From Novosphingobium sp. 9 (GTDB lineage: Bacteria > Pseudomonadota > Alphaproteobacteria > Sphingomonadales > Sphingomonadaceae): 64,000 nucleotides of DNA. The notes under the pieces are model-generated. The model was given only the letters and a program-made list of their open reading frames with translations, was not told the DNA's origin and did no database searches. The stretch is from positions 705,501-769,500 of the forward strand of contig NZ_CP022708.1 in the NCBI RefSeq assembly GCF_025340265.1, given 5' to 3'. Position numbers and translations under genes: made by a program. Every line of letters starts with the position of its first letter. Positions within the stretch are counted from its first letter, which is position 1. This document shows, one piece after another, positions 17,753 to 49,504 of this stretch.

Positions 17753-17889
17753 TCGAGAGAGCCCCCTTCAGACGCCAGCAACGACGCCAGTGATGGCCCG
17801 AATGACCATTCGTTGCGATGCAGCATAGGGGCGGTTCCAGAGGCAGGGTATCGCCGATGCCCCCGGAACGGAGCTTGCGAGGCAAGAAT

Positions 17890-17924
17890 GGCACCGCGAC
17901 GGATCAAAAAACCGTCGCGGTGCC
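17890..17924 (-). terminator. terminator downstream of the ZnuD-like receptor
   Basis: A perfect 13-bp stem (GGCACCGCGACGG and its complement) with a 9-base loop containing six A on the + strand (T-run on the - strand). It lies 20 bases after the receptor stop codon. Confidence 0.75.
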
Positions 17925-17943
17925 GGTAAGAGCGGGTAATAGG

Positions 17944-19986: not shown

Positions 19987-20079
19987 GTAACTCCGTGAAC
20001 CTTGGGCGCTGCGTATTTCGGTGTGTCTCGCAACGCCGGTTCGGCCCCGAAACCGTGGGGCCGGTATCAGTCAAAAAGG

Positions 20080-20646: not shown

Positions 20647-22808
20647 GTGCGACAGATGAGGGTTTCGGTCAGGGCGGCGGCGCTGGCCGGATGCACGCTG
20701 GCGGCATGGTTGCCCACGGTGGGCCATGCCGAGGATGCGGCTGCCGCATCTTCGGCAGTTCAGGCAGAGGATCAGGACAGCTACCATCGGCGTCCGGGTG
20801 ACGACATCATCGTGACGGGGGTGCTGCCGATGCGGCGTCAGGATACGCTTTCGGGCGTCGCGGTGCTTCAGGGCGAGGCGCTGACCCGCGCGGTGCGTCC
20901 GTCTATCGGCGAGACGCTGGCGCACGAGGCAGGCGTTTCCGCCACCTCGTTCGGCCCAGCGCCTCGCGTCCGGTGTTGCGCGGCCTTCAGGGCGAGCGCG
21001 TGCGCGTGCTGAGCGACGGGATCGGCTCGATCGACGTGTCGAACACCTCGGTCGACCATGCGACGGTGGTGAACCCGCTGCTGGCCGAGCGGATCGAAGT
21101 GCTGCGCGGGCCGCAGTCGCTGCTCTATGGTTCGTCCGCGATCGGCGGCGTGGTCAATGTGATCGACCGCCGTATCCCGCGCGACGTGCCGGACGAGCCC
21201 TACCACGTCTCGGCGCTGGCGGGCTACGGCTCGGCGGCGAAGGAGCGTTCGGTCGCAGGCTCGGTCGATGTGCCGCTGGACAGGCACTGGGTGCTCCATG
21301 CCGACGGCAGCTATCTCAAGAGCGACGACATGCGCATTGGCGGCCATGCGCTGACCCCGGCATTGCGCGCGCAGGCGCTGGCCTCCGCCCAGCTTCCCGC
21401 AGAAGACGCGGAAGAGGGTGAGGAGCCGATCGATTTCGCCGCCAATGCGGCAGTGAAGGGCAAGCTGCCCAACTCGCAGGCCAAGACCTGGACCGCAGGC
21501 GCAGGCCTTGCCTATATCGGTGACAGCGGCTCGTTCGGGGTGTCCTATGGCCACTACGACAGCCTCTATGGCGTGCCGATCCGCTTTGCGACCGAGCCGG
21601 GCGCCGAACAGGAAGCGCCGCGCCTCAGCCTCGTGCAGGATCGCGTCGATGCCCGCGCCGAGATCAATGCGGGCGGCAGCGTGATCGACAAGGTGACGCT
21701 GCGTCTGGGCTATGCCGATTACCACCACTTCGAGCTGGAAGAGAGCGGGGAAGTCGGCACCGCGTTCTACAGCAAGGGCATGGAAGGGCGCCTCGAACTC
21801 GCCCAGACCAGGCATGGCGTCTGGCGCGGTGTTACGGGCGTCCAGATGTTCACCCGCGATTTCAACGTGGTGGGCGAGGAAGCCTTCCTGCCCAAGAACG
21901 CGACCGAACAGTACGGCCTGTTCACCCTGCAGGAGCTGGACTACGGCGCGCTGAAGATCGAGGCCGGTGCCCGGATCGAGCACACGTTCCTCTCGGCAAG
22001 CCCCAGTGCGGAGCAGTCGGACCAGTTCTTCTCCGGCTCGCGCAGCTTCGATGCCTTCTCGGGCTCGCTCGGCGCGTCCTATGGTCTTTCGGACAACTGG
22101 CGCGTCGGCCTCAACGTCTCGCGCACCGAGCGTGCCCCGGCGGCGGAAGAGCTGTTCGCCAATGGCCCGCATGCCGGGACCGAAGCCTATGAGGTCGGCG
22201 ATCCCGACTTCAAGCTGGAGCGCGCGGTCAGCGTCGAGGCGACGCTGCGCGGGCAGGGCGAGGGCTATACTTTCGAAGCCTCGGCCTACCACACCTGGTT
22301 CTCGAACTTCATCTACGAGGATCTGACCGGCGCAATCGAGGACGGTCTGCCCGTCTATGCCTTCCATCAGGCCGATGCGCGCTACTATGGCTTCGAGGCG
22401 CAGGGCTCGCTGACGCTGGCGAGCATCGGGCAGGCGAAGATCGTCGGCGATGCGCTGGGTGACTGGGTTCATGCCGAAGTGGTCGGCGTCGGCCCTGCGC
22501 CGCGCATCCCGCCCTTGCGCGTGCTGGGCGGCCTCACCGTGCAGACCCCGATGGTCGACGTGCGCGGCGAGGTGGAACATGCCTGGAAGCAGGACCGCAC
22601 CTCCGAGTTCGAGACGACGACGCCCGGCTACACGATGGTCAATGCCTCGGCGACGATCCGTCCGTGGGGCAAGGAGCGCCCGCTCAGCTTCGTGGTCTCG
22701 GCGAACAACATCTTCGATGTCGTCGCCCGCCGCGCCGCCTCGTTCCTCAAGGACTACGCCCCGCTTTCGGGCCGCGACATCCGCGTGACCGCAAAGCTGG
22801 ACTTCTGA
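20647..22808 (+). pseudogene. TonB-dependent receptor, second ZnuD-like paralogue, one-base frameshift
   Basis: Starts at a GTG placed 9 bases after a near-perfect ribosome-binding site (AAGGAGG, 20631-20637). An ATG 9 bases later is too far from it. Frame one has a signal peptide (LPTVGHAED), the TonB box DDIIVTGVLP and the start of the plug to ATSFGPA. It then turns to Cys/Arg-rich noise and stops at 21012. The next frame resumes exactly at SRPVLRGLQGERVRVLSDG and runs to a proper aromatic end (TAKLDF). Restoring one G at about 20959-20962 gives FGPGASRP, the usual plug string. The intact protein would be about 720 residues. It is divergent from the first ZnuD-like operon and probably shares its metal control. 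Confidence 0.85.
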
Positions 22809-24023: not shown

Positions 24024-26435
24024 TTACAGCCCCACCGAAAGCGTCAGGAACCACTGGCGCGGTGCGATCGGATAGACCGCGTAGACAGAGCTAGGCTGGC
24101 TGATCGAGATCGTCGAGGCGCCCTTGACGTCGAAGATGTTGGTGACGTTCAGCGCCAGCGAGGCCTTCTGCAAGTGCACGAGGCTGGCGGGCAGGTCCAC
24201 CGCGACGCGCCCGTTCGACATGAAGTACGAACCCACCGAACCGTCGTCGGTATAGGTGGCATAGCGCTTGCCGATGTACATGCCGGTGTATTGCGCCTGG
24301 AACGGCCCGATATTGGCCGAGACCACCGTCTTGCTCATCCACTTGGGGCTGCCCGGAACCTGCTTGCCCGCCGTGGCATAAGTGGTGGTGCCGTTCGAGT
24401 AATCGTCATCGTACTTGGAGTTGTTGTACGACAGGCCCTCGTAGACCGAGAAGATGCCACCGATACCCAGCGTGACCGCGGCGTCCGCGCCGTTGGTGGT
24501 CACGCTGCCGACGTTGAACAGCGAGGTGGTGCCGCCGGTGATCGAGCTGCCGCCAAGGCCGCCGACCGTGGTGCTGACTGCCAGCAGACGGTTCGAGAAG
24601 TCGACGTGGTAGTAGTTCACCTGGGCATCGAGCGAGGAGATGAACGAGCCGGGGAACACGTGGTGGCTGCGCAGACCCACTTCATAAGTCCACGAGGTTT
24701 CCGGCTTGCCGCTCTCCTTGAAGTAGTCGAACGCCGCCTGGCTGCCGGTGCTCCACGGCGCGGTGCCGAAGTTGCGCAGGTTCTTCTGGACGTTGAAGTA
24801 AAGCTGCTCGTGACCGTTGAAGTCGTACTTCGCGCCGATCGCGGGCAGGAACCAGTTGCTGGTGGTGATGCTGCCCGAAGGCAGCGCGCCGACCATGCCG
24901 GAATAGGACCCGGCGACCGGCTGCGTGGGATACCAGCCCTTGGCGTAGACGAGGCTGGACTTCACGCCGCCCTGCACGGTCAGCTTGCTGTTGACGTCCC
25001 ATTCGTCCTGCAGGTGCAGCTGCAGCGCATCGGTGCGGTACTGGAAGCTGTACTGCGTGAACAGCGGGTTGTGCTGCCAGTGATAGGGATCGGTCGGGTT
25101 GTTGACGTCCAGCGCGTACCAGTTGCGCCAGTTGGCGCCGCTGTTGTGCTCGTACCACGCGCCGAACTCGATGTGGTGGTTGGCCACGTTCGCCTTCAGC
25201 GTCGAGACGATACCTTCCCGGTCGATGCGATACTGGGTCACGCGGGTGATATAGCCGCTGCCGCCGGTATCGGCGACCAGTTCGCTGATCGAGTCATTCG
25301 GGAAATAGGCCTGCGCCACCGAAAGCGACTGGCCGAGCGGCCCGGCAACCACGCCCTGACCGTCGTTGTGGTGATAGTACGCCTGGTTCGACCAGCTGAT
25401 GTTGTCGGTGACGTTGGCGTCGTACTTGATGTAGCCGAGATAGTCGGTGCGCAGCGCTGCCGAGAAGTAGTTGCGATAGTTGCTGCCTTCGGCTGCCGGG
25501 GTGTTGCCGTTGGCATCGACGTAGGAGAGCGCTTCCGACCAGTTCGGATAGGTGAACGGGCGGGTGTAGGGCTGGTAGGCCTGTGCAGCGGTCGTCGGGT
25601 TGACGTAGATCGTCGTGGCGTCCTCGTTCGGCTCCTGCTTGTCCGAATAGTCGAAGAACGCGGTCAGCTTGCCGGCGTCGTTCTCGTGAACGTACTTGGC
25701 GTTGAGCTGGTAGCCGCCCTGAACGCCGTTGTAGTCCCACGCACGGGCGCGCTGGCGGGCGAGCGAGACATAGGCGCTCGAACCGCCGTCAGACCCGAAC
25801 GAGCCGAAGTCATAACGGCCATAGCTGCGCGAGGTGCCGTAGCTGCCCACGGTCTGCGCCAGCTGAAGGCCCCGGCGCTTGAGCGGGTCGGACGAGGACA
25901 GTTCGATCGCGCCGCCCAGGTTGTTGAGCGAGGGAATGCCAAGGTCGCCCGCACCGGTGGCGACCACGACATTGCCGATGTTTTCCGAGATCACCGCGCG
26001 CTGCGGCGAAATGCCGGTGATGTTGCCGTAGGCAAGGTCTCCCAGCGGCAGGCCGTCCAAGGTATATCCAAGCTGGCTGATCGCGAAGCCGTGGATGTAG
26101 AGCGACATGTCCTGCTCGTTGTTGCCCCACGGATCGGCCGTCTGGTACATCACGCCGGGCAGCGTCTGGATCGCGCCGAAGGCCGAGACGCCGGGCAGGA
26201 TCTTCTGGATTTCCACACCCGAAAGCTCGGTGGCCGAACGCGTGGTCTTGGCAGAGGTCACGACGATGGCATTCGCTTCACCTGCGTCATCGGCGCCAGC
26301 ATCGGTGGCAGGAGCAGCCGCGGTGGCGGCAGCGGCGTTATCGTCCGCAGCAAGAGCGGGCGAAGCGGCGGCGAGCGTGGCAGTCGCCAATGCGCCCAGC
26401 GACAGCGTGGAAAGGAAACGGCGCGAACCCATCAT
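24024..26435 (-). CDS. TonB-dependent receptor in operon with GDPD
   Basis: An 803-residue receptor: signal peptide to ALAADD, an Ala/Asp-rich linker (residues 30-52), TonB box NAIVVTSAK, plug with SLYIHGFAISQLGYTLDGLPLGD and NNLGGAIELSSSDP, and a large barrel ending LTLSVGL. The plug is divergent from classical siderophore receptors and close to FecA-like/TIGR01785-type carriers. It is the first gene of a two-gene operon with the glycerophosphodiesterase 2 bases downstream. The ligand is therefore probably a phosphorylated organic compound such as a glycerophosphodiester or phospholipid head group. That assignment rests on context only. Two dyads lie in its promoter region. Confidence 0.83.
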   Translation of the reverse strand: MMGSRRFLSTLSLGALATATLAAASPALAADDNAAAATAAAPATDAGADDAGEANAIVVTSAKTTRSATELSGVEIQKILPGVSAFGAIQTLPGVMYQTADPWGNNEQDMSLYIHGFAISQLGYTLDGLPLGDLAYGNITGISPQRAVISENIGNVVVATGAGDLGIPSLNNLGGAIELSSSDPLKRRGLQLAQTVGSYGTSRSYGRYDFGSFGSDGGSSAYVSLARQRARAWDYNGVQGGYQLNAKYVHENDAGKLTAFFDYSDKQEPNEDATTIYVNPTTAAQAYQPYTRPFTYPNWSEALSYVDANGNTPAAEGSNYRNYFSAALRTDYLGYIKYDANVTDNISWSNQAYYHHNDGQGVVAGPLGQSLSVAQAYFPNDSISELVADTGGSGYITRVTQYRIDREGIVSTLKANVANHHIEFGAWYEHNSGANWRNWYALDVNNPTDPYHWQHNPLFTQYSFQYRTDALQLHLQDEWDVNSKLTVQGGVKSSLVYAKGWYPTQPVAGSYSGMVGALPSGSITTSNWFLPAIGAKYDFNGHEQLYFNVQKNLRNFGTAPWSTGSQAAFDYFKESGKPETSWTYEVGLRSHHVFPGSFISSLDAQVNYYHVDFSNRLLAVSTTVGGLGGSSITGGTTSLFNVGSVTTNGADAAVTLGIGGIFSVYEGLSYNNSKYDDDYSNGTTTYATAGKQVPGSPKWMSKTVVSANIGPFQAQYTGMYIGKRYATYTDDGSVGSYFMSNGRVAVDLPASLVHLQKASLALNVTNIFDVKGASTISISQPSSVYAVYPIAPRQWFLTLSVGL

Positions 26436-26518
26436 GATCGAGAATCCCTGAGAGTGCTTTGCAAACGATGCGAGTGATCGTTGGCAGCGCCCGCTAAGGC
26501 CGATTCATGACGCTCTGT

Positions 26519-31858: not shown

Positions 31859-32563
31859 TTAATCTCGCTGAATGCAGTGCAGGAAAAGATTGGCGGTCAG
31901 ACGACCTTTCCTCGGATCCAAAGCATCCTGACTCGGCGCTTGCGCCAGCGCACCATGAAGCCTGGCTGAGCGGTACACTATCAAACGGTCCATCATGGCC
32001 TCGCAGGAGGTCGTCAGTGCAAACAGCGCGTCATCCGCAGCGACATAGGCAGCAGAGATGGCGTCTTGTGCCAGCTCGCTGTCGAGCACGGCATTGTAGT
32101 GCGGCACACGCTCGGGGGTCAGAATTTCGTATCCCGTCGAGCGATGGCGGAAAAAGCCGGTGCCACCGTGCTCGCTGGTACACAGGTAATGCACCACAGC
32201 GAACTGCATGGGATCGGCAGAATCAACGTGAGGTATCCTTTGTAAGACATTGAGTTCTGAGCACGATGTCGTCAGAAGTGAGAAGTTTCCCCGTACGCGT
32301 CCGGGGCGTATCGGCCCTGTGCGGAAGCGTTCCGAGATGACCGGAATCAGCCGTTCCACCATCGACATGATATAATCCATGGGAAGTGGTGCAAAGTGCC
32401 CAGGATAGCCGCTGCCGAGACTGGCAGCGCTCTCGAACCGGCTGCGTGCGGCATGTTCAATTAGTCTGCCAGGCTGGCCGGTAGCCCGATCGAAGATCGC
32501 CATCGGGCTCTCTTCCCAACAAGTGGGCCGCGTTTCGTCCGGTGCAATCATGCGATTTCCCAT
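31859..32563 (-). CDS. DUF6445 family protein behind a TonB receptor
   Basis: A 234-residue cytoplasmic protein. The string LQRIPHVDSADPMQFAVVHY followed by GGTGFFRHRSTGYE is characteristic of DUF6445, a family recurring beside large TonB receptors in Sphingomonadales, Caulobacterales and Xanthomonadales. The pattern H-x-D (H117/D119 region) and a later His/Arg resemble 2-oxoglutarate oxygenases, so a hydroxylase role is conceivable but unproven. It lies 65 bases downstream of the receptor gene on the same strand, with a perfect hairpin in between, and probably forms an operon with it. An alternative start exists 12 bases downstream (MIAPDE). Confidence 0.72.
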   Translation of the reverse strand: MGNRMIAPDETRPTCWEESPMAIFDRATGQPGRLIEHAARSRFESAASLGSGYPGHFAPLPMDYIMSMVERLIPVISERFRTGPIRPGRVRGNFSLLTTSCSELNVLQRIPHVDSADPMQFAVVHYLCTSEHGGTGFFRHRSTGYEILTPERVPHYNAVLDSELAQDAISAAYVAADDALFALTTSCEAMMDRLIVYRSARLHGALAQAPSQDALDPRKGRLTANLFLHCIQRD

Positions 32564-32587
32564 ACCTTGAACCCTGCCCCAAAAGGA

Positions 32588-32618
32588 CGCCGGAGCATGT
32601 ATCAGACATGCTCCGGCG
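32588..32618 (-). terminator. hairpin between receptor and DUF6445 genes (attenuator-like)
   Basis: A perfect 13-bp stem (CGCCGGAGCATGT and its complement), 5-base loop, 10 bases after the receptor stop. On the - strand it is followed by TCCTTTTGGGG. It could partly terminate transcription or protect the receptor mRNA, giving less DUF6445 than receptor. Confidence 0.65.
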
Positions 32619-32628
32619 CAGGGAGGGT

Positions 32629-35466
32629 TCAGTAGGTCGCGCGGATCGAGAAACCGAACCGGCGGTCGTTCAGGGTATATTGCAGCGGTTGGCTCGGTGT
32701 GCCGATGTAGGTCATGTTCATGCGGTTCAGGAGGTTGACCGCATCGAACGAGATTGAGACTTGCTTGGTCACATCGAAGCTGACCGAGGCATCCAGCGAG
32801 GCATAGGGTGCCTGATACTGGGGAATGCCGTTGGCGCCGCTGCCATAAGTCGTATCGAGATATTTCCCGCGCCAGCTCCAGGCGACACGTGCCGTGACGG
32901 GCCCCTTCTCGTACAGGCCGACAAGATTGTAGCTGTGCTTGGAGAGCTTTTCGAGCGGCACCTGCTCGGGAATGTCACTGCCCACCGTGGCGAAGGGATT
33001 GGTGACGTTGCTGTCCACGAAAGTATAGTTAGCCTGTACGCCAAGGCCGCTGAGCAGGCCCGGCAGGAAGTCGAAGAATTGCTGATAGGCGACTTCGAAA
33101 CCCTTGATCGTTCCCTTGCCGGAATTTTCCGTGGTGGCAATGTCATACGTCACCCCGCCATAGTCACGCTGAACCGTGCCGCTGGCAAGGAAGCCGTCTA
33201 CCCGCTTGTAGAACAGGCCACCGGTCAACGAGCCCGTGCGCGCGAAATACCACTCCACGGTCGCATCGAAGTTGGTCGAGGTGATCGGATGGAGATAGGG
33301 GTTGCCCGAAGAGCCCGTGGGGCGACCATCGGCGTCCAGCTGGGATTCGGTATTGGGATTGAGGGTCACGTTGGTCGACATGACATCGAAATTCGGACGG
33401 GCGAACGATTTGGAGAAGGCGAAACGGGCCTGCAACTGATTGGTCAGGTGGGCACGCAGGTTGAAGCTGGGCAACAGCTTCGTATAGCTGCGATCAACGG
33501 TCAGCGGCTCGGTCGTGCCGTCGGAGTTGAAGATCGTTCCGGCCGACCCGGTGCTGGTGTTTACGAGGCGCAGCCCTGCCGTACCGTCGAAATCGAGGCC
33601 AAACAGCGTCGAGCCATAATCCGCCATGACGTAGCCTGCCCATGTTCGTTCAGACTGGTGGTTGAGATCGGACGGCGCGAAGTAGTTCTTCGGGCTGGTG
33701 TTGAACAGGGCTTCGGTCTTGGTGATGCTGTCCCACAGGCTGGAGCCGGATTCGAAGTTGGGATAGAGGATTCCACCCGCCAGCGTGTTGCCGTCGAAGA
33801 AATTGCTCGACGGACCGGACATGACGAGTTCGGGGTGTTCCGAGACCGGAATGAAGGTGGTGCCGTTGGGCGCAGCGCAGGACGGGTCGGCACCGGTGGG
33901 AATGAGGCAGAAGGCATTCCAGGTGCCGCGCAGGTCGATTGTGCTGTCCGAATAGCGCACGCCGCCGCGCAGCTTTTGGAGGAAGCCGCCGTCGGCATCG
34001 TATTCGAGGTCATAGCGCAGCGCGAGCTGATCGGCATCGTTGCGCTGAAGCGCGTCGGCCATATAGGTGAAGGCGTAGTTCGAAGGGTCGGCCAGTGCGG
34101 CCGGATCGGCTACGTTCCAGGTTGGATATTTTCCGCGCAGGTCGAACGTCACCGTATTCTGGTGAAGCGCATCGTAAGGCGTCTCGCCCTTCTTGTCGTA
34201 CTCGGAAATCACGAAGCCGTTGCGATCGGCATCGTAGCTCGACTTCAGGTACTGGGCATCGAAGGTCATCTTCAGCTTGTCGCTGACCTTCCACTGCACA
34301 TTGAAAGTGTAATTGCCGGTCGTGTCGGTCAAATCCTGATCGTAGCGCGCGGATTCGAAAACCTGGTTGGCAAGCGTGCCGGAGGTTGCATAGCCATTCT
34401 TGTCGAACGTGAAATCCGCGCCGTCCAGGGGGGTGGAAATCGGATTGCCGTCCGCGTCGACATTGCCGTTGTTGTTGAAGTAGTAGTACTTGCCCTGACG
34501 GTAGAAGTTATACCGCGAATATAGCGCCTGCGCGGTGAACAGCAGGTCAGGTGTTGCCTGCCACTGCAGTGCACCGGCAACGCCCAGACGCTTGCGATTG
34601 CCGCCGTCGTCGTAAATCTGCTCACCCACCGGAACCTGCGCATTCGCCGGAGCACCGGGGATCGTGACGCCTGCGGGGATTGGCGCATACTGCCCGATGA
34701 GAATGGCGTCCTGCCGGTAGGAACTCTTGGAGTAGCTGGCGTTCAGCAGGATACCGATTTCACCGATATTGGTGTCGAAGCGGTTGCTGTAGAGGCCGGA
34801 TGCCGAGCCGCCGAACTTGTCCGCGCGGTCATAGTAATCGCCCTTGAAGGTCGTGCTGATGACCTGGCCGGGAGAGTCGAACGGCAGGCGCGTGCGCACG
34901 TTCGCTACGCCAGCGATATCGCCTTCGATGGTGTCCGCCGGGGGGTTCTTGAAGACGTCGATGCCGGACAGCATGGTCGGCGGCAGGGCTTCGAGATCGA
35001 GCGTGCGTCCGCCCGAAGCCGAAATCGCTGAGCGGCCATCGATGAAGTTGCTGACCTCGGTGAGGCCACGCACAGTAATCGCAGGCTCGGTGCGATGGTC
35101 GAAATCGGTGCCGCCTTCTCCGTAGCGCCGCTGGATCTGCACGCCGGGGATACGCTGAAGCGCCTCGACGGTATTAGCATCAGGCAGCTTGCCGATATCC
35201 TGCGCCTCGACAGAGTCCACGATCTGCTGCGAATTGCGCTTGTTCGATTGAGCGCTCTGGAGGCTGGCGCGAACGCCGGTAACGATAATCTCGTCTGCGG
35301 ACGAAGGCGCGGATGTATCTGGTGCCAGTGTGCTGGCAGCACCGGTTACAGTCGGGGATGCCGTGCTCGGTGCTTGTGTCTGCGCCATAACCGGGACGCC
35401 GAACGCCGCTGCACTAGCCGCGAGCGTAGACACACCAAAAAGAAAGCGATTGCAGCGCCTTACCAT
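32629..35466 (-). CDS. large TonB-dependent receptor (Xanthomonas/Caulobacter carbohydrate type)
   Basis: A 945-residue receptor. After the signal peptide (GVPVMAQTQ) and a Thr/Ser/Pro-rich linker come the TonB box DEIIVTGVRASLQSAQSNKR and the plug with DSVEAQDIGKLPDANTVEAL and RIPGVQIQR. These are the marks of the TIGR01782 TonB-Xanth-Caul group, many of which take up plant polysaccharide fragments. The barrel ends in GFSIRATY. It is divergent from the GH35 galactosidase across a 289-base region holding a palindrome that recurs elsewhere in the carbohydrate locus. Likely role: import of oligosaccharides released by the glycoside hydrolases. Confidence 0.88.
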   Translation of the reverse strand: MVRRCNRFLFGVSTLAASAAAFGVPVMAQTQAPSTASPTVTGAASTLAPDTSAPSSADEIIVTGVRASLQSAQSNKRNSQQIVDSVEAQDIGKLPDANTVEALQRIPGVQIQRRYGEGGTDFDHRTEPAITVRGLTEVSNFIDGRSAISASGGRTLDLEALPPTMLSGIDVFKNPPADTIEGDIAGVANVRTRLPFDSPGQVISTTFKGDYYDRADKFGGSASGLYSNRFDTNIGEIGILLNASYSKSSYRQDAILIGQYAPIPAGVTIPGAPANAQVPVGEQIYDDGGNRKRLGVAGALQWQATPDLLFTAQALYSRYNFYRQGKYYYFNNNGNVDADGNPISTPLDGADFTFDKNGYATSGTLANQVFESARYDQDLTDTTGNYTFNVQWKVSDKLKMTFDAQYLKSSYDADRNGFVISEYDKKGETPYDALHQNTVTFDLRGKYPTWNVADPAALADPSNYAFTYMADALQRNDADQLALRYDLEYDADGGFLQKLRGGVRYSDSTIDLRGTWNAFCLIPTGADPSCAAPNGTTFIPVSEHPELVMSGPSSNFFDGNTLAGGILYPNFESGSSLWDSITKTEALFNTSPKNYFAPSDLNHQSERTWAGYVMADYGSTLFGLDFDGTAGLRLVNTSTGSAGTIFNSDGTTEPLTVDRSYTKLLPSFNLRAHLTNQLQARFAFSKSFARPNFDVMSTNVTLNPNTESQLDADGRPTGSSGNPYLHPITSTNFDATVEWYFARTGSLTGGLFYKRVDGFLASGTVQRDYGGVTYDIATTENSGKGTIKGFEVAYQQFFDFLPGLLSGLGVQANYTFVDSNVTNPFATVGSDIPEQVPLEKLSKHSYNLVGLYEKGPVTARVAWSWRGKYLDTTYGSGANGIPQYQAPYASLDASVSFDVTKQVSISFDAVNLLNRMNMTYIGTPSQPLQYTLNDRRFGFSIRATY

Positions 35467-35533
35467 AGACCTCTCTCCCGTACGACCGAATTTGCCGGCC
35501 TGATTCGTTGTCGTCGAGATTAGTATCGCTTAT

Positions 35534-35546
35534 CTTGTCAGACAAG
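35534..35546. promoter_or_regulatory. candidate GntR operator, site A
   Basis: Perfect 13-base palindrome CTTGTC-A-GACAAG, 68 bases upstream of the receptor start (- strand) and 210 bases upstream of GH35. It has the form of FadR/GntR-type operators (TTGTCnGACAA) and recurs at three other sites in the carbohydrate locus. Confidence 0.6.
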
Positions 35547-35755
35547 TAGGATATTTCCAGATCGTTGCTTATGTGTACGGATACATCGGCGCGACGGCGC
35601 TAAATCACGAATTTCAAGCGTTTTGTTGTCATTATGTTACGATGCAACGTTGCTCTTGCAACGCAAGCCATCTTGCGAATCGTGCACTCGGCTGCAACTA
35701 GTAAGACAAATCAAGGGCCGCCAACGTTTGTGGCTATCGGGAGAGGTCTGGATCT

Positions 35756-37378
35756 ATGTCTATATTGCGTACTCGCATCGCCTTGTTGCTCGCAGCGGGC
35801 AGTTTGTCGTTGGAAGCCGCGCAGGCTCAGGTGGCGCAGCCTGATAGCAGGTTCGTCGCTACGCCTTCAGGAAAGCCGCGCTTTACCGTGGATGGCAAGC
35901 CGTTCCTGGTCCTTGGCATCCAGCTCAATAACTCCAGCGGATTTCCCGCGCAGTTCCACGCGCTTGCACCTGCCATTGCGCGTAGTGGCGCGAACACCGT
36001 GATGGCGCCTATCGGTTGGGACACTATCGAGCCTGAAGAGGGGCATTTCGATTTCTCGGTCGTCGACGCGATGATAGCGGAGGCCCGCGCACAGAAAGTC
36101 CGCGTGGCGTTCCTCTGGTTCGGCACATGGAAGAATGCGAAGATGTCCTATGTCCCGGCCTGGGTGAAGCGCGATACCGTTCGTTTCCCGCGCGTGGTCG
36201 ATGCCGACGGATACGCTATCGATGCGCTTTCCCCGATCAGCGAGGAAAGCGAACAGGCCGATGCAAAGGCATTCGCGGCCTTGATGGGGCACCTCAAGGC
36301 GGTGGATGCACGCCAGCGTACGGTGGTGATGGTGCAGGTAGAGAACGAGGCCGGCACGCTGGGAGCCGATCGAGACCATTCACCTGCCGCACAAGCTCTC
36401 TTCGAGGGTACGGTGCCCGCTGCGATGACAACGGCATCGCAGGAGCCATCGCAGCGGGCATCGCAAGGCTCGTGGAGCAGCGTCTATGCCGAGCGGGCGC
36501 CGGAAGCCTTCATGGCCTATTATACCGCGCGCTATATCGGTGCCGTCGCGGCCGCAGGACGCAAGGCGTACGACCTGCCGCTTTACGTCAATGTCTGGCC
36601 GCGCCAGCAACCCGGCCTGCTGCATCCCGGAGACAGCAGTCCCAGCGGCGGCGCGGTGTCCTGGCTCTTGCCGCAATGGAAGGCGCTCGCCCCCGCCATC
36701 GATGTGGTCGGCGTCGATAACTACGATACCAATGTAGCGCCCTACACCGAAATCGCCGAGGCTTACGACATTCCCGGCAACCCGCTGTATGTCCCTGAAA
36801 CCGGCGCGACGATGGCGCATGCACGGCATGCGTTCTGGACGCTTTCACGTCCGTATGCGGTTGGTATTTCCAAGTTCGGGATCGACGAGAGTTTCGGGCT
36901 TGATGGAAGTACCCCGAAAGTCGAGCCGATCGCGCTCGACTATGGCCTGCTGCGTGAGGCGGCACCGTTCCTGCTACCGTTGCGCGATGCGGGGCATGTG
37001 CGTGCCGCCATCGAGGAAGACGGCATGGCCAACGTGCCTATGGATTTCGATGGCTACGATGCCGTGGCCCGTTTCGGGCCGGTGCGCGATGGCTACGGTG
37101 GTCCGCGCGGGCAAGGCAATGCCGATCTTTCGGGCCGGGTCATCGTTGTCCAGGCGGCGCCGGACAAGTTTCTGCTGGCGGGGGCTTCTGCGAACCTGAT
37201 GTTTGCGCCCAAGCTGGGCACTGCCGGGCACGTCGAACTCGTCCATGTCGAGCAGGGGCATTTCAAGGATGGCCAGTGGATCGTCGAGCGCACGCTCAAT
37301 GGCGATGAAACCGCGTTCGGCCTGATCCTGCCGCCCGAAGGTGGGTCCCTGATGGTGACGGTTCAGATCGTCAAATGA
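35756..37378 (+). CDS. GH35-type beta-galactosidase with DUF5597 domain, exported
   Basis: A 540-residue exported enzyme: signal peptide ending AAQAQ (residue 25), TIM barrel from about residue 45 with WDTIEPEEG (89-97), the acid/base motif QVENEAG (E198) and the nucleophile in VPETGA (E348). The C-terminal region is the DUF5597 domain found in Bgl35A-like galactosidases from plant-polysaccharide degraders. The reaction would be removal of terminal beta-galactose. It converges on the GH2 gene and shares a terminator with it. The upstream control region contains the palindrome CTTGTCAGACAAG. Confidence 0.82.
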   Translation: MSILRTRIALLLAAGSLSLEAAQAQVAQPDSRFVATPSGKPRFTVDGKPFLVLGIQLNNSSGFPAQFHALAPAIARSGANTVMAPIGWDTIEPEEGHFDFSVVDAMIAEARAQKVRVAFLWFGTWKNAKMSYVPAWVKRDTVRFPRVVDADGYAIDALSPISEESEQADAKAFAALMGHLKAVDARQRTVVMVQVENEAGTLGADRDHSPAAQALFEGTVPAAMTTASQEPSQRASQGSWSSVYAERAPEAFMAYYTARYIGAVAAAGRKAYDLPLYVNVWPRQQPGLLHPGDSSPSGGAVSWLLPQWKALAPAIDVVGVDNYDTNVAPYTEIAEAYDIPGNPLYVPETGATMAHARHAFWTLSRPYAVGISKFGIDESFGLDGSTPKVEPIALDYGLLREAAPFLLPLRDAGHVRAAIEEDGMANVPMDFDGYDAVARFGPVRDGYGGPRGQGNADLSGRVIVVQAAPDKFLLAGASANLMFAPKLGTAGHVELVHVEQGHFKDGQWIVERTLNGDETAFGLILPPEGGSLMVTVQIVK

Positions 37379-37386
37379 CCGAAAAG

Positions 37387-37417
37387 GGAGCGCCGCAGGT
37401 GAACCCTGTGGCGCTCC
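37387..37417. terminator. bidirectional terminator between GH35 and GH2 genes
   Basis: A 13-bp stem with one G-T pair (GGAGCGCCGCAGG / CCTGTGGCGCTCC), 5-base loop, with AAAA on one flank and TTG on the other. It fills the space between the two convergent stop codons. Confidence 0.75.
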
Positions 37418-37424
37418 TTGTCGT

Positions 37425-41571
<4,147 letters not shown>

Positions 41572-41574
<3 letters not shown>

Positions 41575-41640
41575 GGTTGGTCTAGAGTGGGGTAAAGGCA
41601 GGCTAGAAGGGGGCTAAAGAGGGGGTAGAGGTGGATAGAG
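41572..41640 (+). repeat. helically phased 10-11 bp repeat array, copy 2
   Basis: T residues opening each unit fall at 41572, 41583, 41593, 41604, 41615, 41626 and 41636 (spacing 11,10,11,11,11,10). Units read TAGAGTGGGG, TAAAGGCAGGC, TAGAAGGGGGC, TAAAGAGGGGG and so on, the same TARAGG consensus as the array at 27438-27508. The first unit includes the GntR stop codon. It lies 130 bases before the GH27 start. Confidence 0.75.
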
Positions 41641-41729
41641 ACCGGTTCGCCACCCGCAGAAGCACCCTATCGCCTGCCTGGAAATCCCGGCTGCGAACTC
41701 CCCGCTTGATCTCCCGCACGATCGCGATA

Positions 41730-41740
41730 TTGTCCTACAA
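41730..41740. promoter_or_regulatory. candidate GntR operator, site D
   Basis: TTGTCCTACAA (perfect TTGT/ACAA dyad, 9 of 11 positions as in site A), 32 bases upstream of the GH27 gene that starts the GH27-GH30-GH43 operon. Confidence 0.45.
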
Positions 41741-41771
41741 ATAAGAGGGCAATTTCGGGAAGGGAGCCGTC

Positions 41772-43216
41772 ATGGCAAACGACGATACCCGGTCGCAGGA
41801 CCGGGCCGCAGGCGCATGGTCGCGTCGTGCGATGTTGGGCGTATCGGCAGGGGCAGCACTGGTGCCGGGGCTTGCCGGTGCACTGTCTCCCTCGCTGGCA
41901 CAGGCCGCGACAGGCGCAGGTATTGGCACCGGCGTCGGCACCGCAGGGCGCAAGCCTTTGGCGCCACGCCCGCCGATGGGCTGGAATTCGTGGAACAGCT
42001 TTGCCACCACGATCACCGAGGCCCAGACGCTGGAGCAGGCGGACATCATGGCGCAGCGCCTGCTGCCGTTCGGCTACGATATCCTGACTGTCGATATCCA
42101 GTGGTACGAACCCCACGCTTCCAGCTATGAATATGCGGCGAAGCCGGTGCCGACGCTGGATGGCCATGGCCGCCTGCTGCCTGCCCCAATCGCTTTCCTT
42201 CGGCGGCGGACGGGCGCGGCTTTGCGCCTCTGGCCGGGAAGGTGCACAAGCTGGGCCTGCGCTTCGGCGTCCACCTGATGCGCGGCATCCCGCGTCTGGC
42301 TGTCGAGCAGGACCTGCCGGTGCTGGGCACGTCCACCACGGCGCGCGCCATCGCCGATACGACGAGCACCTGCTCATGGAACCCGGACATGTACGGCGTC
42401 GATATGACAAAACCCGGCGCGCAGGCCTATTACGACAGCGTGTTCGCGCTGCTCGCCTCGTGGGGCGTGGATTTCGTCAAGGTCGATGACCTGTCGCGCC
42501 CCTATGATGCCCATGCCGCCGAGATCGAGGCGATCGACCGCGCAATTGCGAAAACCGGACGGCCCATGATCCTGTCGATGTCGCCCGGCGAAACCCCGGT
42601 GATCCGGGGGGATCATGCCCGCAAGCACGCACGCATGTGGCGCATTTCCGACGATTTCTGGGACAAGTGGCCGTTGCTGGAAGCGCAGTTCACCCGGCTG
42701 GAGAACTGGAACCCTTACATGGGCGTCGGCCCGGACGGAGAGGGCGCCTGGCCCGATGCCGACATGCTGCCGCTGGGCCGTCTGGCGCTGGGCGCGCGCG
42801 ATACTCTGTTCACGCCCGACGAGCAGCGCACGCTGATGACGCTGTGGTCGATCGCCCGCTCCCCGCTGATCATGGGCGGCGATCTGCGCCATCTCGATGC
42901 GCCGACGCTGGCGCTGCTGACGAACCCGGAAGTGCTGGCGGTCAACCAGCGCTCGACCGGCAACCGTCCGCACTTCGTCGATGACAGCGCCCGGATCTGG
43001 TCTGCGCGGGCGGAAAACGGCGATACCTATCTGGCGCTGTTCAATCCCGCCGACGAGGCTCGCACTGTCGGCATCTCGCTGTCGATGCTCGGCCTTTCGG
43101 GCACCGTGCGCCAGCGTGACTTGTGGGCGCGCGCCGACGTCGGCACCGCCAGCGGACGTGTGGAACACAAGATCGCAGCGCATGGCGCGGCGCTCTACCG
43201 GCTTGCAGGCGCATGA
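41772..43216 (+). pseudogene. GH27 family glycosidase (alpha-galactosidase type), Tat-exported, one-base frameshift
   Basis: The restored protein has about 481 residues. It starts with a Tat signal (WSRRAMLGVSAGAALVPGLAG). The GH27 TIM barrel begins PPMGWNSWNSFATTITE, then YDILTVDIQWYE, the nucleophile region DFVKVDD, and GAWPDADMLPLG near the C-terminus. Frame one loses homology after LLPAP. The second frame takes over with NRFPSAADGRGFAPLAG and runs to the stop at 43216. A C missing from the CCCC run at 42184-42187 explains it. GH27 enzymes remove terminal alpha-galactose or beta-L-arabinopyranose, and either fits an arabinogalactan side chain. The stop overlaps the next start (ATGA). Confidence 0.84.
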
Positions 43217-44772
43217 GGGGCAGGAGGATGACACGAACGAACTCCCGCACGATCACGCGCACACTGGCAGCGCTGCTGCTGGGCACGGCGATAGTGACGC
43301 CCGCGCTGGCACAGGATGCATCGCCGCCCGCCTCACCAGACGAGCACTTTCCGGTCGATCCGCCGGTCACGATCACCCTGCGCCCCGATCTGGCGAAGGA
43401 GGCGGGCAATCGCCGCGGCGCTTTCGAGGGCTGGGGGACGGCGCTCGCGTGGTTCGCCAATGTCACCGGGGGCTGGCCCGATGCCGAGCGCAATCGGTTG
43501 GCCGATCTGTTCTATGGCAAGGATGGTCTGGGCTGGACCATCGCGCGCTACAATATCGGCGGCGGCAATGCGCAGGATATCGAGCCCTATTTGCGCACCG
43601 GCGCGGCGGTGCCGGGGTTCTGGAAGAAGCCCGAGGGCGCAACCGGGCGCGACTGGTGGAACCCGGACGATCCGGCGCAGTGGAACTGGCAGGCCGATGC
43701 CAACCAGCGCTGGTGGCTCGATGCGATCCGCGACCGGGTGAAGGCGCCGATCTTCGAGGCCTTCTCCAACTCGCCGCCTTGGTTTATGACCGTTTCGGGC
43801 CGCGTCTCCGGCGCCGACAAGGCCACCGACGACAACCTGCAACCGGGCAAGGAGGGCGCCTTCGCCGAGTATCTCGCGCGCGTGGTCGACGAATTGCAGA
43901 AGCGCCATCACATCGTGTTCCGCACGCTTTCGCCCGTGAATGAGCCCAACACCGATTACTGGTACGCGGCGAATACGCAGGAGGGCGCACACTGGAGCCC
44001 GCAGCGCCAGTCTATGATGATCGAGGCGAGCGATGCCGCGCTGCGCCGCCATGGCCTCTCGACCGTGATCGCCGCCAGCGACGAGACCAATTCGCACACC
44101 TTCCTGCGCGACTGGGCGGGCTGGAGCCCGGCTGCTCGCGCCAAGGTGGGCCAGCTCAACGTCCATTCCTATGGCACCGTCCACCAGACTGCCGTGCGCG
44201 ATATCGCCACCGCCAGCGGCATCCGCCTGTGGATGAGCGAGAACGACACCCCGCTTTCGGGCGATCCCGAGACTTACACCGGCATGGCCTCGCCGCTGGC
44301 CTTCGCCGAGCATGTGGTGCTCGACCTCAAGCGGCTGGAGCCGTCGGCGTGGGTATTCTGGCAGGCGGTGGAAAATATCAGCGGCGGCAACGGCAAGCCT
44401 AGCTCGAACTGGGGGCTGGTGAAGGCCGACATGGCCTCTCCCGCCAGCGGGCCGCACCAGATTCATGTGACGGGCAAATACTGGGCGATGGCGCAGTTCA
44501 GCCGCTATATCCGGCCCGGCGACCGGCTGATCCCGGTGGACGACATGGATACGGCAGGTGCGCTTTCACCCGATGGCAGGCGGCTGGTGATGGTCCATGT
44601 CAACGCGGGGCTCTCGCCACGAAAGCTGGAACTGCCCAGGGGGTGGCGCGTGAGCATGGTCGTGACCGATGCGACGCATCAGGCGACGTGCATGGCGGGG
44701 ACGACGGTGCCCTCACGCGCGATTGCGACACTGGTGCTGACAAAGGGCAGCGAGAAGGGGCCTTGCGTATGA
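43213..44772 (+). CDS. GH30 family hydrolase, endo-beta-1,6-galactanase-like, exported
   Basis: A 519-residue exported enzyme with a signal peptide ending ALAQD. The mature start reads FEGWGTALAWFANVTGGW, the hallmark of GH30 subfamily 5 endo-beta-1,6-galactanases. The acid/base is in SPVNEPNTDYW (NEP), and the nucleophile in IRLWMSEND. GFNSPP-like SNSPPWFMTVSG is also conserved. The ATG at 43213 overlaps the GH27 stop. A second in-frame ATG at 43228 directly abuts AGGAGG, which is too close to serve well. Expected substrate: beta-1,6-galactan side chains of arabinogalactan. It overlaps the GH43 gene (ATGA) and so lies in a tightly coupled operon. Confidence 0.83.
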   Translation: MRGRRMTRTNSRTITRTLAALLLGTAIVTPALAQDASPPASPDEHFPVDPPVTITLRPDLAKEAGNRRGAFEGWGTALAWFANVTGGWPDAERNRLADLFYGKDGLGWTIARYNIGGGNAQDIEPYLRTGAAVPGFWKKPEGATGRDWWNPDDPAQWNWQADANQRWWLDAIRDRVKAPIFEAFSNSPPWFMTVSGRVSGADKATDDNLQPGKEGAFAEYLARVVDELQKRHHIVFRTLSPVNEPNTDYWYAANTQEGAHWSPQRQSMMIEASDAALRRHGLSTVIAASDETNSHTFLRDWAGWSPAARAKVGQLNVHSYGTVHQTAVRDIATASGIRLWMSENDTPLSGDPETYTGMASPLAFAEHVVLDLKRLEPSAWVFWQAVENISGGNGKPSSNWGLVKADMASPASGPHQIHVTGKYWAMAQFSRYIRPGDRLIPVDDMDTAGALSPDGRRLVMVHVNAGLSPRKLELPRGWRVSMVVTDATHQATCMAGTTVPSRAIATLVLTKGSEKGPCV

Positions 44773-45820
44773 GGCGGGCGCTGATCGCGTCGGCCCCGGT
44801 CGCGCTGGTATTGGCGGGCCTCGGCGCTTCGCTGGCCGCCGGTGCCTCGCCTCCTCGCGTGTCCAGCGCTAAGGCCGCACCGCTGCGCCTGCCCGACATG
44901 CCGCTGCACGATCCGTGGATCGTTGCCGACAAGGCGAGTGGGACGTACTACCTCTACACCAGCAACATCGCGAAGATGAGCGGCGATCCGCGCCTCGGCA
45001 TCATGGTCTATACCAGTCGCGATCTGGCGCACTGGACCCGCCCGCGCGTGGTTTTTGCGCTGCCGAAGGATAGCTGGGCCAACGAGGGCGCCTGGGCACC
45101 CGAAGTGCATCGCTGGAAGGGGCGCTGGTATCTCTTCGCGACGTTCTACAACGATGCCAAGACCTTGCCGGTGACGCGGGATGGCAGCGGCGTGGAGCGG
45201 CACCCGGTGCGGCGCTCGACGCTGCTCGCCTCGGCGGACAGCCTCTCTGGCCCGTTCTCGCTGCGAAACGATGGCACACCGCTGGTCGATCCGTCCACGA
45301 TGACGCTAGACGGCACGCTTTATGTCGATCCCAAGGGCAAGCCATGGCTGGTCTATGCGCACGAGTGGGTGCAGGTGGGCGATGGGACCATCGAGGCGAT
45401 GCCGCTGAGCGACCGCCTGACCTCTGCCGGGCCTTCGCGCGTGCTGTTCCATGCCTCGTCCGGCCCCTGGGTGAAGCGCCCCGATGCCGGGCAGCCCGGC
45501 GTTTATGTCACCGATGGCCCGGAGCTGTTCCAGACCCGCACCGGCAGGCTGCTGATGCTATGGTCGAGCTACGATCCGAACGGCTACGTGCAGGGCCTTG
45601 CGCGCTCGACAACCGGGCAGATCGAGGGGCCGTGGGAGCAGCTTCCCCGCTGGTACGGCAGGACAGCGGCCACGGCATGCTGTTCCGCCGCTTCGACGGC
45701 ACGCTGATGATGGTGGTCCATCGACCTTTCAGGAACGCGCGCGGCAAGCTCTACGAGATGCGCGATGCGGGCGACCGGGTAGAGGTCGTGCGTGAGCGGA
45801 CCGACTGGGACGGCGGCTGA
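44769..45820 (+). pseudogene. GH43 family glycosidase, exported, frameshift near the 3' end
   Basis: Starts at ATG 44769 overlapping the GH30 stop (ATGA). The signal peptide is VALVLAGLGASLAAGAS. The five-bladed propeller shows HDPWIVAD (general base Asp), WAPEVHRWKGRWYLFATF and VTDGPELF (acid Glu). Frame one runs to GPWEQLP and then to noise. The next frame supplies QDSGHGMLFRRFDG to the stop at 45820. One C lost from the CCCC run at 45645-45648 explains it. The restored protein has about 350 residues. GH43 includes alpha-L-arabinofuranosidases, xylosidases and exo-beta-1,3-galactanases. With GH30, GH27, GH2 and GH35, an arabinofuranosidase or exo-galactanase is most likely. Confidence 0.82.
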
Positions 45821-48008: not shown

Positions 48009-48329
48009 ATGCCGGAAAAACGTCATCGATCTCCGTAGGAAAAGAAGGCTCTGAGCCTGAAATTCGACCGCCGTAATACTTTCGGCGAAAGCAGGCAGGC
48101 TGCGCGCAAGGCGATCCCGTTGCGCAAGGCACTGGATAGCCGCCGCGTCCGGCATGAGAATAACCAAGCGTTGGCGCAGGCCTTGTCCGGGGACGAGGCC
48201 TCTCTGGATCTGACGGAAAGCTCGGCGAGGCAGAATATCGCTCGTATCGGCGGTTGGAAGAAGACGCCGGACACGCCTCTGGGACAGGCTATCGACCGTG
48301 CCTTGAAACGAAGAGCGCGCCGCTCCTAA
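48009..48329 (+). pseudogene. small basic conserved protein with an in-frame amber codon
   Basis: ATG 48009 opens MPEKRHRSP, then a TAG at 48036, and the same frame continues EKKALSLKFDRRNTFGES and on to KKTPDTPLGQAIDRALKRRARRS for 98 codons in all. The short segment before the TAG is itself basic and fits the following one, so a sense codon such as AAG, CAG or CGG was probably replaced by TAG. Without it the ORF would start only at CTG or TTG codons (for example 48051, 48120). The product is a Lys/Arg-rich, likely nucleic-acid-associated small protein of unknown family. Its end overlaps the RES toxin gene by 4 bases. Confidence 0.45.
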
Positions 48330-49018
48330 TCCAGCGCCCGTTTTTCATAGATCGTGGCGATGCTTTGCCCGTCCCAGACGTAGCACAAGTGCCGCTCTTG
48401 CCGGCAGGCGGTGAGCAAGCGGGGGCGGAAGACGGCGGCGCATTCGCCGGTGTTGTCGCGGACCGAGCGATAGACGATGCCGTCGGCCCCTGCATCGCGT
48501 AGCCCCCGCGCGAACACTTGCGAGGCGGCGTAGTCGTCCTTCGCATAGAGCCAAGGCTGTGGCTCCTCCAGCGCGCGGATATCGTGCAGGCCGGCGGCAA
48601 GATCGACGGCGTAGACGCGCATGTCGATCTCCTGCGCGGGTTCGGCAGTGGCGGCGAGGAACGCGGCGCGGTGAAAGCGCGTCTCGGCGATGGCGGTCTC
48701 CACTGAGCGGGCCGCATAGAATACGCCATAGGTGCCATCGGCAAAGCGATCGCCCTGCCGGTTGATGTGGGTGAAGGCGGCCATGATCGCGGACGAGCCG
48801 GGGCCGGAGACGCGATCTTCGGGCGGCACTTGCGACAGGTCGCCCGCCTCTTCGCGCAGGCGGTCGTTGGTCAACGCTTCGATGGCATAGACCGCTTCGA
48901 GATCGGCCGGATCGGTGACGGCCTCGAACAGCGAGATCGGCGGGAAACGGCTGGGAATGATCCGATAGCACGGCGTCCAGCGGACCGGCGTGACGGGTAT
49001 GTCCTCGGGTATGGTCAT
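48326..49018 (-). CDS. RES-domain protein, toxin of an Xre-RES pair
   Basis: A 230-residue protein with the RES fold (PF08808): YRIIPSRFPP (conserved Arg), GTYGVFYAARSVETAIAETRFH (conserved Glu) and YRSVRDNTGE (conserved Ser). RES toxins degrade or modify NAD+ and stop growth. The gene lies 12 bases downstream of an Xre/MbcA-type antitoxin on the same strand, the usual order for this type II toxin-antitoxin system. The catalytic residues named above are present, so it is probably active. Confidence 0.88.
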   Translation of the reverse strand: MTIPEDIPVTPVRWTPCYRIIPSRFPPISLFEAVTDPADLEAVYAIEALTNDRLREEAGDLSQVPPEDRVSGPGSSAIMAAFTHINRQGDRFADGTYGVFYAARSVETAIAETRFHRAAFLAATAEPAQEIDMRVYAVDLAAGLHDIRALEEPQPWLYAKDDYAASQVFARGLRDAGADGIVYRSVRDNTGECAAVFRPRLLTACRQERHLCYVWDGQSIATIYEKRALD

Positions 49019-49030
49019 TGCGCGTTTGGT

Positions 49031-49459
49031 TCAGCCCCGCTGCGCATCGACATACTGGCGCACCACGTAAAGGTCGGCGACCTGCCCAGAAAGCATGCGC
49101 TCCAGCGCCGAACGCCCGCCGAACGGCGCGGCGCTGTTGGGCTTGCGCACCCAGTCATCGGCGGTCTGCGGCAGCAGGACGTGCAGCCCCTTGTAGATGC
49201 CCATGACGTAGGAAATCCGCTCCAGCGCATCTTTCGACAGAGCCGAGACCGCGCCGCGCTTCCACGATTGCAGGGTCGAGCGACTGTCGAGCCCCAGCAG
49301 GCGCATCTGCTCCGCCTCCTTCAGGCCCCAGGCTTCAGCGATCCGGAAGAAGGTGCGCAGCGCCGGGCCGGTCAGATCCTTGCGCGAAAACGCCTTTGCC
49401 GGAGCGGCATCGGCGACAGGGGCGGGGGCAGCGGCATGGGGGCGGGCATGACTGGCCAT
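49031..49459 (-). CDS. Xre/MbcA/ParS-type antitoxin
   Basis: A 142-residue antitoxin with an Ala/Pro-rich N-terminal 22 residues, an Xre-like helix-turn-helix (about residues 45-75: EAEQMRLLGLDSRSTLQSWKRG), and the C-terminal MbcA/ParS/Xre toxin-binding domain (PFGGRSALERMLSG-QVADLYVVRQYVD). It is expected to bind and block the RES toxin and to repress the operon. A perfect palindrome 27 bases upstream is the likely operator. Confidence 0.87.
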   Translation of the reverse strand: MASHARPHAAAPAPVADAAPAKAFSRKDLTGPALRTFFRIAEAWGLKEAEQMRLLGLDSRSTLQSWKRGAVSALSKDALERISYVMGIYKGLHVLLPQTADDWVRKPNSAAPFGGRSALERMLSGQVADLYVVRQYVDAQRG

Positions 49460-49485
49460 GATCGGATTATCCTTCCAAGCCCAAT

Positions 49486-49504
49486 ATGTTCATTATCTGA
49501 ACAT
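49486..49504. promoter_or_regulatory. operator-like palindrome of the Xre-RES operon
   Basis: Perfect 7-bp dyad ATGTTCA-ttatc-TGAACAT, 19 bases, between 27 and 45 bases before the antitoxin start. Position and symmetry fit autorepression by the Xre antitoxin. Confidence 0.6.

Follow-up and report, generated by a model that had tools for sequence, protein, structure and literature searches.

A glycosidase locus of Novosphingobium sp. 9 most likely directed at type II arabinogalactan side chains, and its predicted GntR operator

Introduction

A locus of eight genes that most likely targets the side chains of type II arabinogalactan, of plant or algal origin, has been identified in a 64,000-nucleotide stretch of the genome of Novosphingobium sp. 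9. This stretch, referred to as the window, corresponds to positions 705501-769500 of C2, the second (1.39 Mb) of the two contigs, C1 and C2, that make up the 4.39 Mb genome; window coordinates are used throughout. The locus encodes a receptor for import and a GntR regulator of its own. What has been computed is the identity and synteny of the genes, the residues for catalysis and specificity, and the conservation of the operator; activities, localisation, binding and effector are inferred. The favoured explanation as a whole, degradation and import of the side chains with GntR-palindrome control of five transcription units, is given a probability of about 0.75. The locus is of a real and recurrent kind, its novelty is modest and its regulon is testable. 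The most useful new lead of the analysis is a palindrome of the type TTGTCNGACAA, which is probably the operator of the GntR protein and which makes the regulon directly accessible to experiment. Among the named relatives found, the locus of Novosphingobium profundi F72 (L001) is the nearest, with a GH30 protein 86% and a receptor 87% identical.

Organisation of the locus

Searches of Pfam, NCBIfam and PDB have identified the eight gene products as a DUF6445 protein, a TonB-dependent receptor, a GH35/DUF5597 protein, a LacZ-type GH2 protein, a GntR/FCD regulator and members of the families GH27, GH30 and GH43. An earlier note made on this DNA from the letters alone had listed these families, all of which are present; it had not noticed that four of the genes are out of frame. 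The frames of the receptor, DUF6445, GH35 and GH30 genes are intact. The note had set the locus at 35534..45820, which holds six of the genes and leaves the receptor and DUF6445 genes to its left.

The receptor gene (32629-35466, minus strand) matches PF00593 and PF07715, and its product scores 637 bits with TIGR01782 (cut-off 310), the TonB-Xanth-Caul type. Downstream of it on the same strand lies the gene of the DUF6445 protein (31859-32563; PF20043, 3.1e-60). The GH2 gene is also on the minus strand, and the GH35 gene, the GntR gene and the series GH27-GH30-GH43 are on the plus strand. As the receptor and GH2 genes are on the minus strand, gene orientation gives five transcription units and not one operon. 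The stop and start overlaps reported earlier for the GH27-GH30-GH43 series have both been located: an ATGA at 43213-43216 is common to the GH27 stop and the GH30 start, and another at 44769-44772 to the GH30 stop and the GH43 start. All five enzymes have N-termini that resemble export signals, as judged by eye.

The GH30 enzyme

The GH30 gene (43213-44772, plus strand; PF14587, 2.5e-23) is intact and its product carries the motif FEGWGTALAWFANV, of the FEGWGT type noted previously. Residue numbers given here count from an alternative start at 43228. The best PDB match is 24td (4.6e-50, 173.9 bits), followed by 3clw with 61.6 bits. 24td has been described as Sa16Gal30A, a GH30_5 endo-β-1,6-galactanase of Streptomyces avermitilis with Glu217 as acid/base and Glu320 as nucleophile, in which Gln229 reads the axial O4 of galactose, Trp350, Asp354 and Trp359 form the -2 subsite with Trp359 stacking, and the cleft loops of the subfamily are without major indels (PMC13431644). 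The window protein is about 37% identical to Sa16Gal30A over 372 aligned residues and retains both catalytic glutamates. With the numbering of Sa16Gal30A mapped onto the PDB chain by counting, its Asn216, Glu217, Gln229, Tyr294, Glu320, Trp350 and Trp359 correspond to N238, E239, Q251, Y315, E338, W378 and W395, and these seven residues are identical in 69/69 clustered homologues (of the 83 loci used, 14 contributed no GH30 to the cluster). The window enzyme should work like an endo-β-1,6-galactanase.

Several features weigh against a full equivalence. Trp222 is replaced by Tyr and Asp354 by Glu in the window protein and in all 69 homologues. Loop 8 is longer than that of Sa16Gal30A by eight residues in the window protein and by 7-8 in 13 proteobacterial homologues, and loop 7, the loops being assigned by reading of the alignment, is longer as well. 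A tree of 20 rows separates the Sa16Gal30A group from the proteobacterial group (support 97/95 and 100/99) and places both far from two Bacteroidota GH30 proteins (100/100), with two Streptomyces proteins between the groups and without firm placing. These replacements, the longer loops and the separation in the tree could mean that the GH30 group of these loci differs in specificity from Sa16Gal30A through remodelled cleft loops, with decorated side chains or a different β-galactan, for example, as its target. We regard this as unlikely, with the galactose-selecting Gln229 and the stacking Trp359 retained. The longer loop 8 is also found in the two Streptomyces proteins and in Ruminococcus albus, the latter on the Sa16Gal30A side of the tree, and S. 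cadmiisoli, on that same side, has a Tyr in place of Trp222, so that neither feature alone marks the proteobacterial group. The assignment to GH30 subfamily 5 made in the earlier note thus holds for the nearest solved relative and the key residues and does not extend to the cleft loops; since these are not free of indels, the enzyme is called GH30_5-like. The group provides enzymes for comparison with the newly solved Sa16Gal30A. An AlphaFold model of the GH30 protein (alignment A1, 12 rows) had a mean pLDDT of 57.5, too poor for a fold search, and was not used.

GH27, GH43, GH2 and GH35 enzymes

The GH27 gene (41772-43216, plus strand) is read in two frames that split near 42185, and both halves of the product have as their best PDB matches 4nx0 (GsAbp) and 3cc1, which we take to be Bh1870. 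Aligned to these two, the first half (41772-42194) has an Ile at the specificity position, within VDIQW. Among 21 clustered homologues, 19 have Ile and two have His at this position, and none has Asp; the GH27 of L036 carries the Ile. According to PMC4598101, α-galactosidases have Asp here and the β-L-arabinopyranosidases GsAbp and CpArap27 have Ile, and GsAbp and Bh1870 are members of GH27 Group VI, that of the β-L-arabinopyranosidases. The window protein, which shares the diagnostic Ile with GsAbp and CpArap27 and differs from them in its broken frame and in having homologues with His, is thus placed in the β-L-arabinopyranosidase clade. The earlier note had left open whether it is an α-galactosidase or a β-L-arabinopyranosidase; the Ile speaks for the latter and disfavours the former.

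The two His-bearing homologues are encoded at L005:8598-9962 and L047:8568-9899; the residues described for this position in the same source, as far as it is available, are Asp, Glu, Ile and Cys (PMC4598101).

The GH43 gene (44769-45820, plus strand; PF04616, 3.4e-28; PDB 5c0p, 9.7e-41) is also read in two frames, split near 45650. Its D48, D181 and E252 are invariant in 6/6 aligned sequences; their presumed catalytic roles follow from the GH43 motifs, with D48 taken as the base from the DP.I motif. The exo-β-1,3-galactanases of GH43_24 are described as being without the catalytic base Asp (PMC7939473). Because this residue is kept in the window protein, the exo-1,3-galactanase option that had been offered for it is rejected. 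From the context the enzyme is a probable remover of α-L-arabinofuranose.

The GH2 gene (37425-40687, minus strand), for a LacZ-type β-galactosidase, is in two frames split near 38078 by a single-base difference to L001. The GH35/DUF5597 β-galactosidase gene (35756-37378, plus strand) gives PF18120 at 2.2e-27 and the PDB matches 8faa (1e-110) and 4d1i (5.2e-95), and scores 452.6 bits with NF051902 of NCBIfam, under the cut-off of 500 of that model. The sequences of GH2 and GH35 do not tell the linkage specificity.

These assignments may be arranged in a pathway. The receptor would bring large oligosaccharides into the periplasm, to which the export-signal-like starts of the five enzymes point. 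There GH27 would take off β-L-arabinopyranose caps and GH43 α-L-arabinofuranose, GH30 would cut the exposed β-1,6-galactan internally, and GH2 and GH35 would trim the fragments down to galactose. The backbone would be left to other genes or to other organisms.

Predicted operator and the GntR regulator

The claim that the locus has its own GntR regulator is borne out by matches to PF07729 (FCD, 4.6e-23) and to the helix-turn-helix family PF00392 (3.7e-12, positions 23-64 of 64). The gene extends from about 40865 to 41574 on the plus strand, with GTG at 40865 as the assumed start; its beginning is in another frame, the split being near 40950, and the product is 92% identical in L001, where, as in L066, the gene is intact.

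One palindrome like TTGTCNGACAA is found 32-69 bp before the start codon of each of the five units. The predicted operator TTGTCAGACAA at 35535-35545 stands 69 bp before the receptor start and is kept in L001, and TTGTCCTACAA at 41730-41740 stands 32 bp before the GH27 start. The remaining three have one mismatch each: 35699-35709, 47 bp before the GH35 start, for which a similar sequence is seen by eye in L001, though no GH35 follows there; 40736-40746, 49 bp before the GH2 start; and 40822-40832, 33 bp before the GntR start; the last two are kept in L001 by eye. The window contains TTGTNNNACAA exactly twice, at 35535 and 41730, each time within a promoter of the locus. The motif was chosen after the 41730 site had been seen, so that this site is not independent.

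A wider representation of the palindrome has been found in 80 related loci. They contain 61 exact sites, spread over 45 loci, where order-1 shuffles lead one to expect about 3.7. The 61 divide into 28 sites in 28 loci that carry a clustered GntR gene (18 of these loci have one, 1.2 sites expected) and 33 in the other 52 loci (27 have one, 2.5 sites expected). For 48 of the 61 a gene start is close by and the site does not lie far inside a gene; 10 lie far inside a listed reading frame. A spacing of 3 yields the 61 sites, and spacings of 0-2 and 4-7 yield 2-8. The half-site TTGT ranks first of 64 of equal A/T content. A GntR homologue of 52-68% identity is found in 12/12 Alphaproteobacterial genomes, 10 of which have no GntR in the gene cluster of the locus; no homologue was matched at 1e-20 in two Oxalobacteraceae genomes whose loci have no sites.

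A number of observations speak against this assignment or limit it. The loci are related, and the counts are therefore not independent. Exact sites are missing from 35 of the 80 loci, including 10 of the 28 with a clustered GntR. Within the window the one-mismatch matches number 13 against 7.2 expected, a weak excess that 5 of 100 shuffles reach; five of the 13 fall in promoters of the locus. TTCA (55) and TTCT (54) are also frequent half-sites in the loci, and in an 800-kb control they are again commoner (11 and 10, against 4 for TTGT). The 12 Alphaproteobacterial genomes were chosen for having sites, and the site-free comparison consists of the two Oxalobacteraceae. Several genomes have GntR paralogues at 46-50% identity, and the binder could therefore be a paralogue. 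The own genome shows no enrichment of the core TTGTCNNACAA, which gives 10 rows where the reversed control gives 16 and 20, so that the core alone does not define the regulon. Seven of its places elsewhere in the genome were fetched; a search of one strand recovered six, four of them in predicted coding sequence and two not.

With these points considered, the TTGTCNGACAA-type palindrome is probably the GntR operator. The regulator bound to it would repress the five units until a catabolite appears, the effector being perhaps a sugar acid from the oxidation of galactose or arabinose. Among published regulators of this kind none on arabinogalactan was found, in the parts of the literature available (PMC5343134 included).

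The own genome also encodes a paralogous GntR/FCD protein, at 50% to the L066 query, with one-mismatch palindrome sites (L173:735-13578, within C1:465001-485000). It adjoins an AbnA-like GH43, an arabinofuranosidase-domain protein, an aldehyde dehydrogenase, an IlvD/Edd-type dehydratase frame and a 2-keto-3-deoxy-galactonokinase.

Related loci and loss of genes

A scan of one genome per species gave 134 relatives of the GH30 protein, of which the best 80 were retained, by record title 63 from Sphingomonadales, 6 from Caulobacter, 3 from Asticcacaulis, 7 from Oxalobacteraceae and 1 labelled Microvirga. Only 4 of 149 sampled Novosphingobium genomes have a match, the own genome included; such loci are frequent in Sphingomonas and rare in Novosphingobium.

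For synteny four more loci were added, and homologues were found by tblastn in these 84; many of the loci are cut by contig ends and the counts are therefore lower bounds. The receptor has homologues in 56 loci, 47 of them at 43% identity or more and nine only about 30% identical, which links a TonB-type transporter to the glycosidases. The N-terminal part of GH2 is found in 44 loci, GntR in 35, GH27 in 22, DUF6445 in 15, GH35 in 14 (3 at about 35%) and GH43 in 7. The recurrence of the same families around GH30 argues that the grouping is not due to chance. In 21 of the 22 GH27-bearing loci GH27 is directly upstream of GH30 and in the same direction (the exception is L033), and L036 and L047 have GH35-GH27-GH30-GH43 in the order of the window. 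The Sphingomonas and Caulobacter loci (L036, L047, L073 and others) thus share gene families, partly their order, and in 45 of the 80 loci the palindrome; they differ in their arabinose-removing partners and in often having GntR elsewhere. With one representative annotated per cluster, these partners are an α-L-arabinofuranosidase-domain protein (14 loci), a GH43 with F5/8C (22) and GH127 (5).

More distant GH30 homologues provide an independent pointer to the release of galactose. A Streptomyces homologue of 50% identity is beside genes for a galactonate dehydratase, a sugar kinase and a KDPG-type aldolase, and another is beside β-galactosidase and sugar ABC transporter genes. A still more distant Hymenobacter protein adjoins SusC/SusD-type genes. 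No galactose genes were seen in the stretches fetched around four other distant homologues and the Bacteroides one.

In N. profundi the order is receptor-GH2-GntR-GH30-sulfatase, and GH27, GH35 and GH43 were not found in the fetched stretch. The interval between GntR and GH30 matches the window GH27 promoter and first codons, with an alignment score of 110 against 37 for the best of 100 shuffles, which indicates that GH27 has been lost there; the counterpart of the 41730 operator now stands before the GH27 remnant. The arrangement at L001:9796-13109 is thus one of an operator and the first GH27 codons kept before GH30, with the sulfatase directly after.

A wider proposal may be drawn from these comparisons: a GntR/FCD protein and TTGTCNGACAA would govern the use of arabinogalactan side chains across Sphingomonadales and Caulobacter, the operator outliving its genes as at the GH27 remnant of N. 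profundi, and a GH30 with a reshaped -2 subsite would cut before arabinose is removed. We put this forward as speculation that is improbable.

Substrate of the locus

Arabinogalactan proteins coat the plant surfaces that sphingomonads inhabit, and in the arabinogalactan polysaccharide utilisation loci of Bacteroides the import across the outer membrane goes through TonB-type receptors. The window locus resembles PUL5 and PUL13 of B. plebeius in being, most likely, a glycosidase locus for arabinogalactan, and differs from what the available text describes for them in having no GH43_24, no GH105 or GH145 among its Pfam matches, a receptor of the TIGR01782 type and a GntR regulator (PMC8406133). 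The earlier note had read the window locus as one for stripping type II arabinogalactan with a receptor for the products. This is most likely right for the side chains. It had also called the locus complete, which is unsupported: no enzyme that cuts the backbone or removes glucuronic acid or rhamnose is among the Pfam matches of the locus (31859-45820), and four genes are out of frame. Elsewhere in the genome ten GH43 matches were found, seven of which were compared with NCBIfam and two of these with PDB, and none of the seven received the name GH43_24; GH16 was not searched. As to the remark that such loci are not often described in Sphingomonadales, no published description for Sphingomonas or Novosphingobium was found, judged by titles and abstract starts, and in this sense it stands; the loci themselves are frequent in Sphingomonas genomes.

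The names nearest to the GH43 protein count against an arabinogalactan substrate. NCBIfam and PDB yield only arabinanase-like names for it, from the endo-arabinase 5c0p and a weak match to NF053747, and linkage specificity cannot be read from the sequences of GH2 and GH35. The substrate could on these grounds be pectic, arabinan or the arabinogalactan of rhamnogalacturonan-I and not that of arabinogalactan proteins. The genome, however, has a separate cluster on C1 with the AbnA-like GH43, the arabinofuranosidase-domain protein and the 2-keto-3-deoxy-galactonokinase, and we consider a pectic substrate of the window locus to be quite unlikely.

Arabinogalactan side chains, which we favour, need not be those of land plants. 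The sulfatase gene directly after the same GH30 gene in N. profundi (L001:11520-13109) suggests the use of sulfated arabinogalactan in that species, in Bacteroides plebeius the sulfated polymer is opened by a sulfatase (PMC8406133), and the window carries a gene for an alginate lyase (16742-17767; PF08787). That the natural substrate is an arabinogalactan of algae, perhaps a sulfated one, is accordingly a possibility to be kept in view, though not a probable one: the window locus has no sulfatase, and Sphingomonas accounts for most of the homologous loci, with strain names that in several cases indicate an isolate from leaf or root.

The alginate lyase gene adjoins a TonB receptor gene, the two together occupying 16742-20070.

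Broken reading frames

The GH2, GntR, GH27 and GH43 genes are each split between two frames in this assembly, within 8.4 kb. That half of the genes are out of frame tells against a functional locus, and GH2, GntR, GH27 and GH43 may be true pseudogenes of a decaying locus in which the receptor, DUF6445, GH35 and GH30 are still whole. Two further observations agree with decay. Among 83 TonB-receptor matches three look split and several shortened, those noted being on C2, and N. profundi has lost GH27 and shows neither GH35 nor GH43 in the part fetched.

The breaks themselves are of a uniform kind. Judged by their coordinates, all four genes lack one base for a length divisible by three, GntR with its assumed start. 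The GH2 and GntR breaks are single-base differences to L001, which for GntR is evidence independent of that start. All four breaks coincide with or adjoin a stretch of four or five consecutive Cs; C/G runs of at least four, together with the 3 bp on either side, take up about 6% of the window. Frameshifts were also scanned for by coding potential in 40 sampled stretches (400 kb per contig) and in the window. The scan gave 29 loose candidates on C1, 38 on C2 and 7 in the window, many of which are ordinary overlapping genes, and the strict ones alone have therefore been counted. Of these, 17/39 are within 12 bp of a C/G run of at least four (C1 4/12, C2 10/21, window 3/6), as against 9.8-10.5% of random coding positions; the figures for ordinary gene junctions are 11/69, 5/36 and 2/5 for C1, C2 and the window respectively. 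The strict list includes two of the four breaks of the locus (38081 and 42178), a third (45658) appears among the loose candidates alone, and the scan did not pick up the GntR break. The one-base shortfalls, the adjacency to C runs and the presence of candidates on both replicons make indels of a long-read assembly likelier than decay. Assembly error is the most likely cause of all four breaks, and decay of the locus is held to be unlikely.

Other possible frame breaks in the window that would fit assembly indels are at about 20680-22808, in a TonB receptor with an incomplete plug, and at 59463-59737, in a sigma factor-FecR region.

Other observations in the window

An open frame of 826 residues at 24024-26504, for which the coding signal is strong, matches no Pfam family at 1e-5. 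Adjacent genes with a RES domain and an Xre-like antitoxin domain at 48326-49489 form a probable toxin-antitoxin pair.

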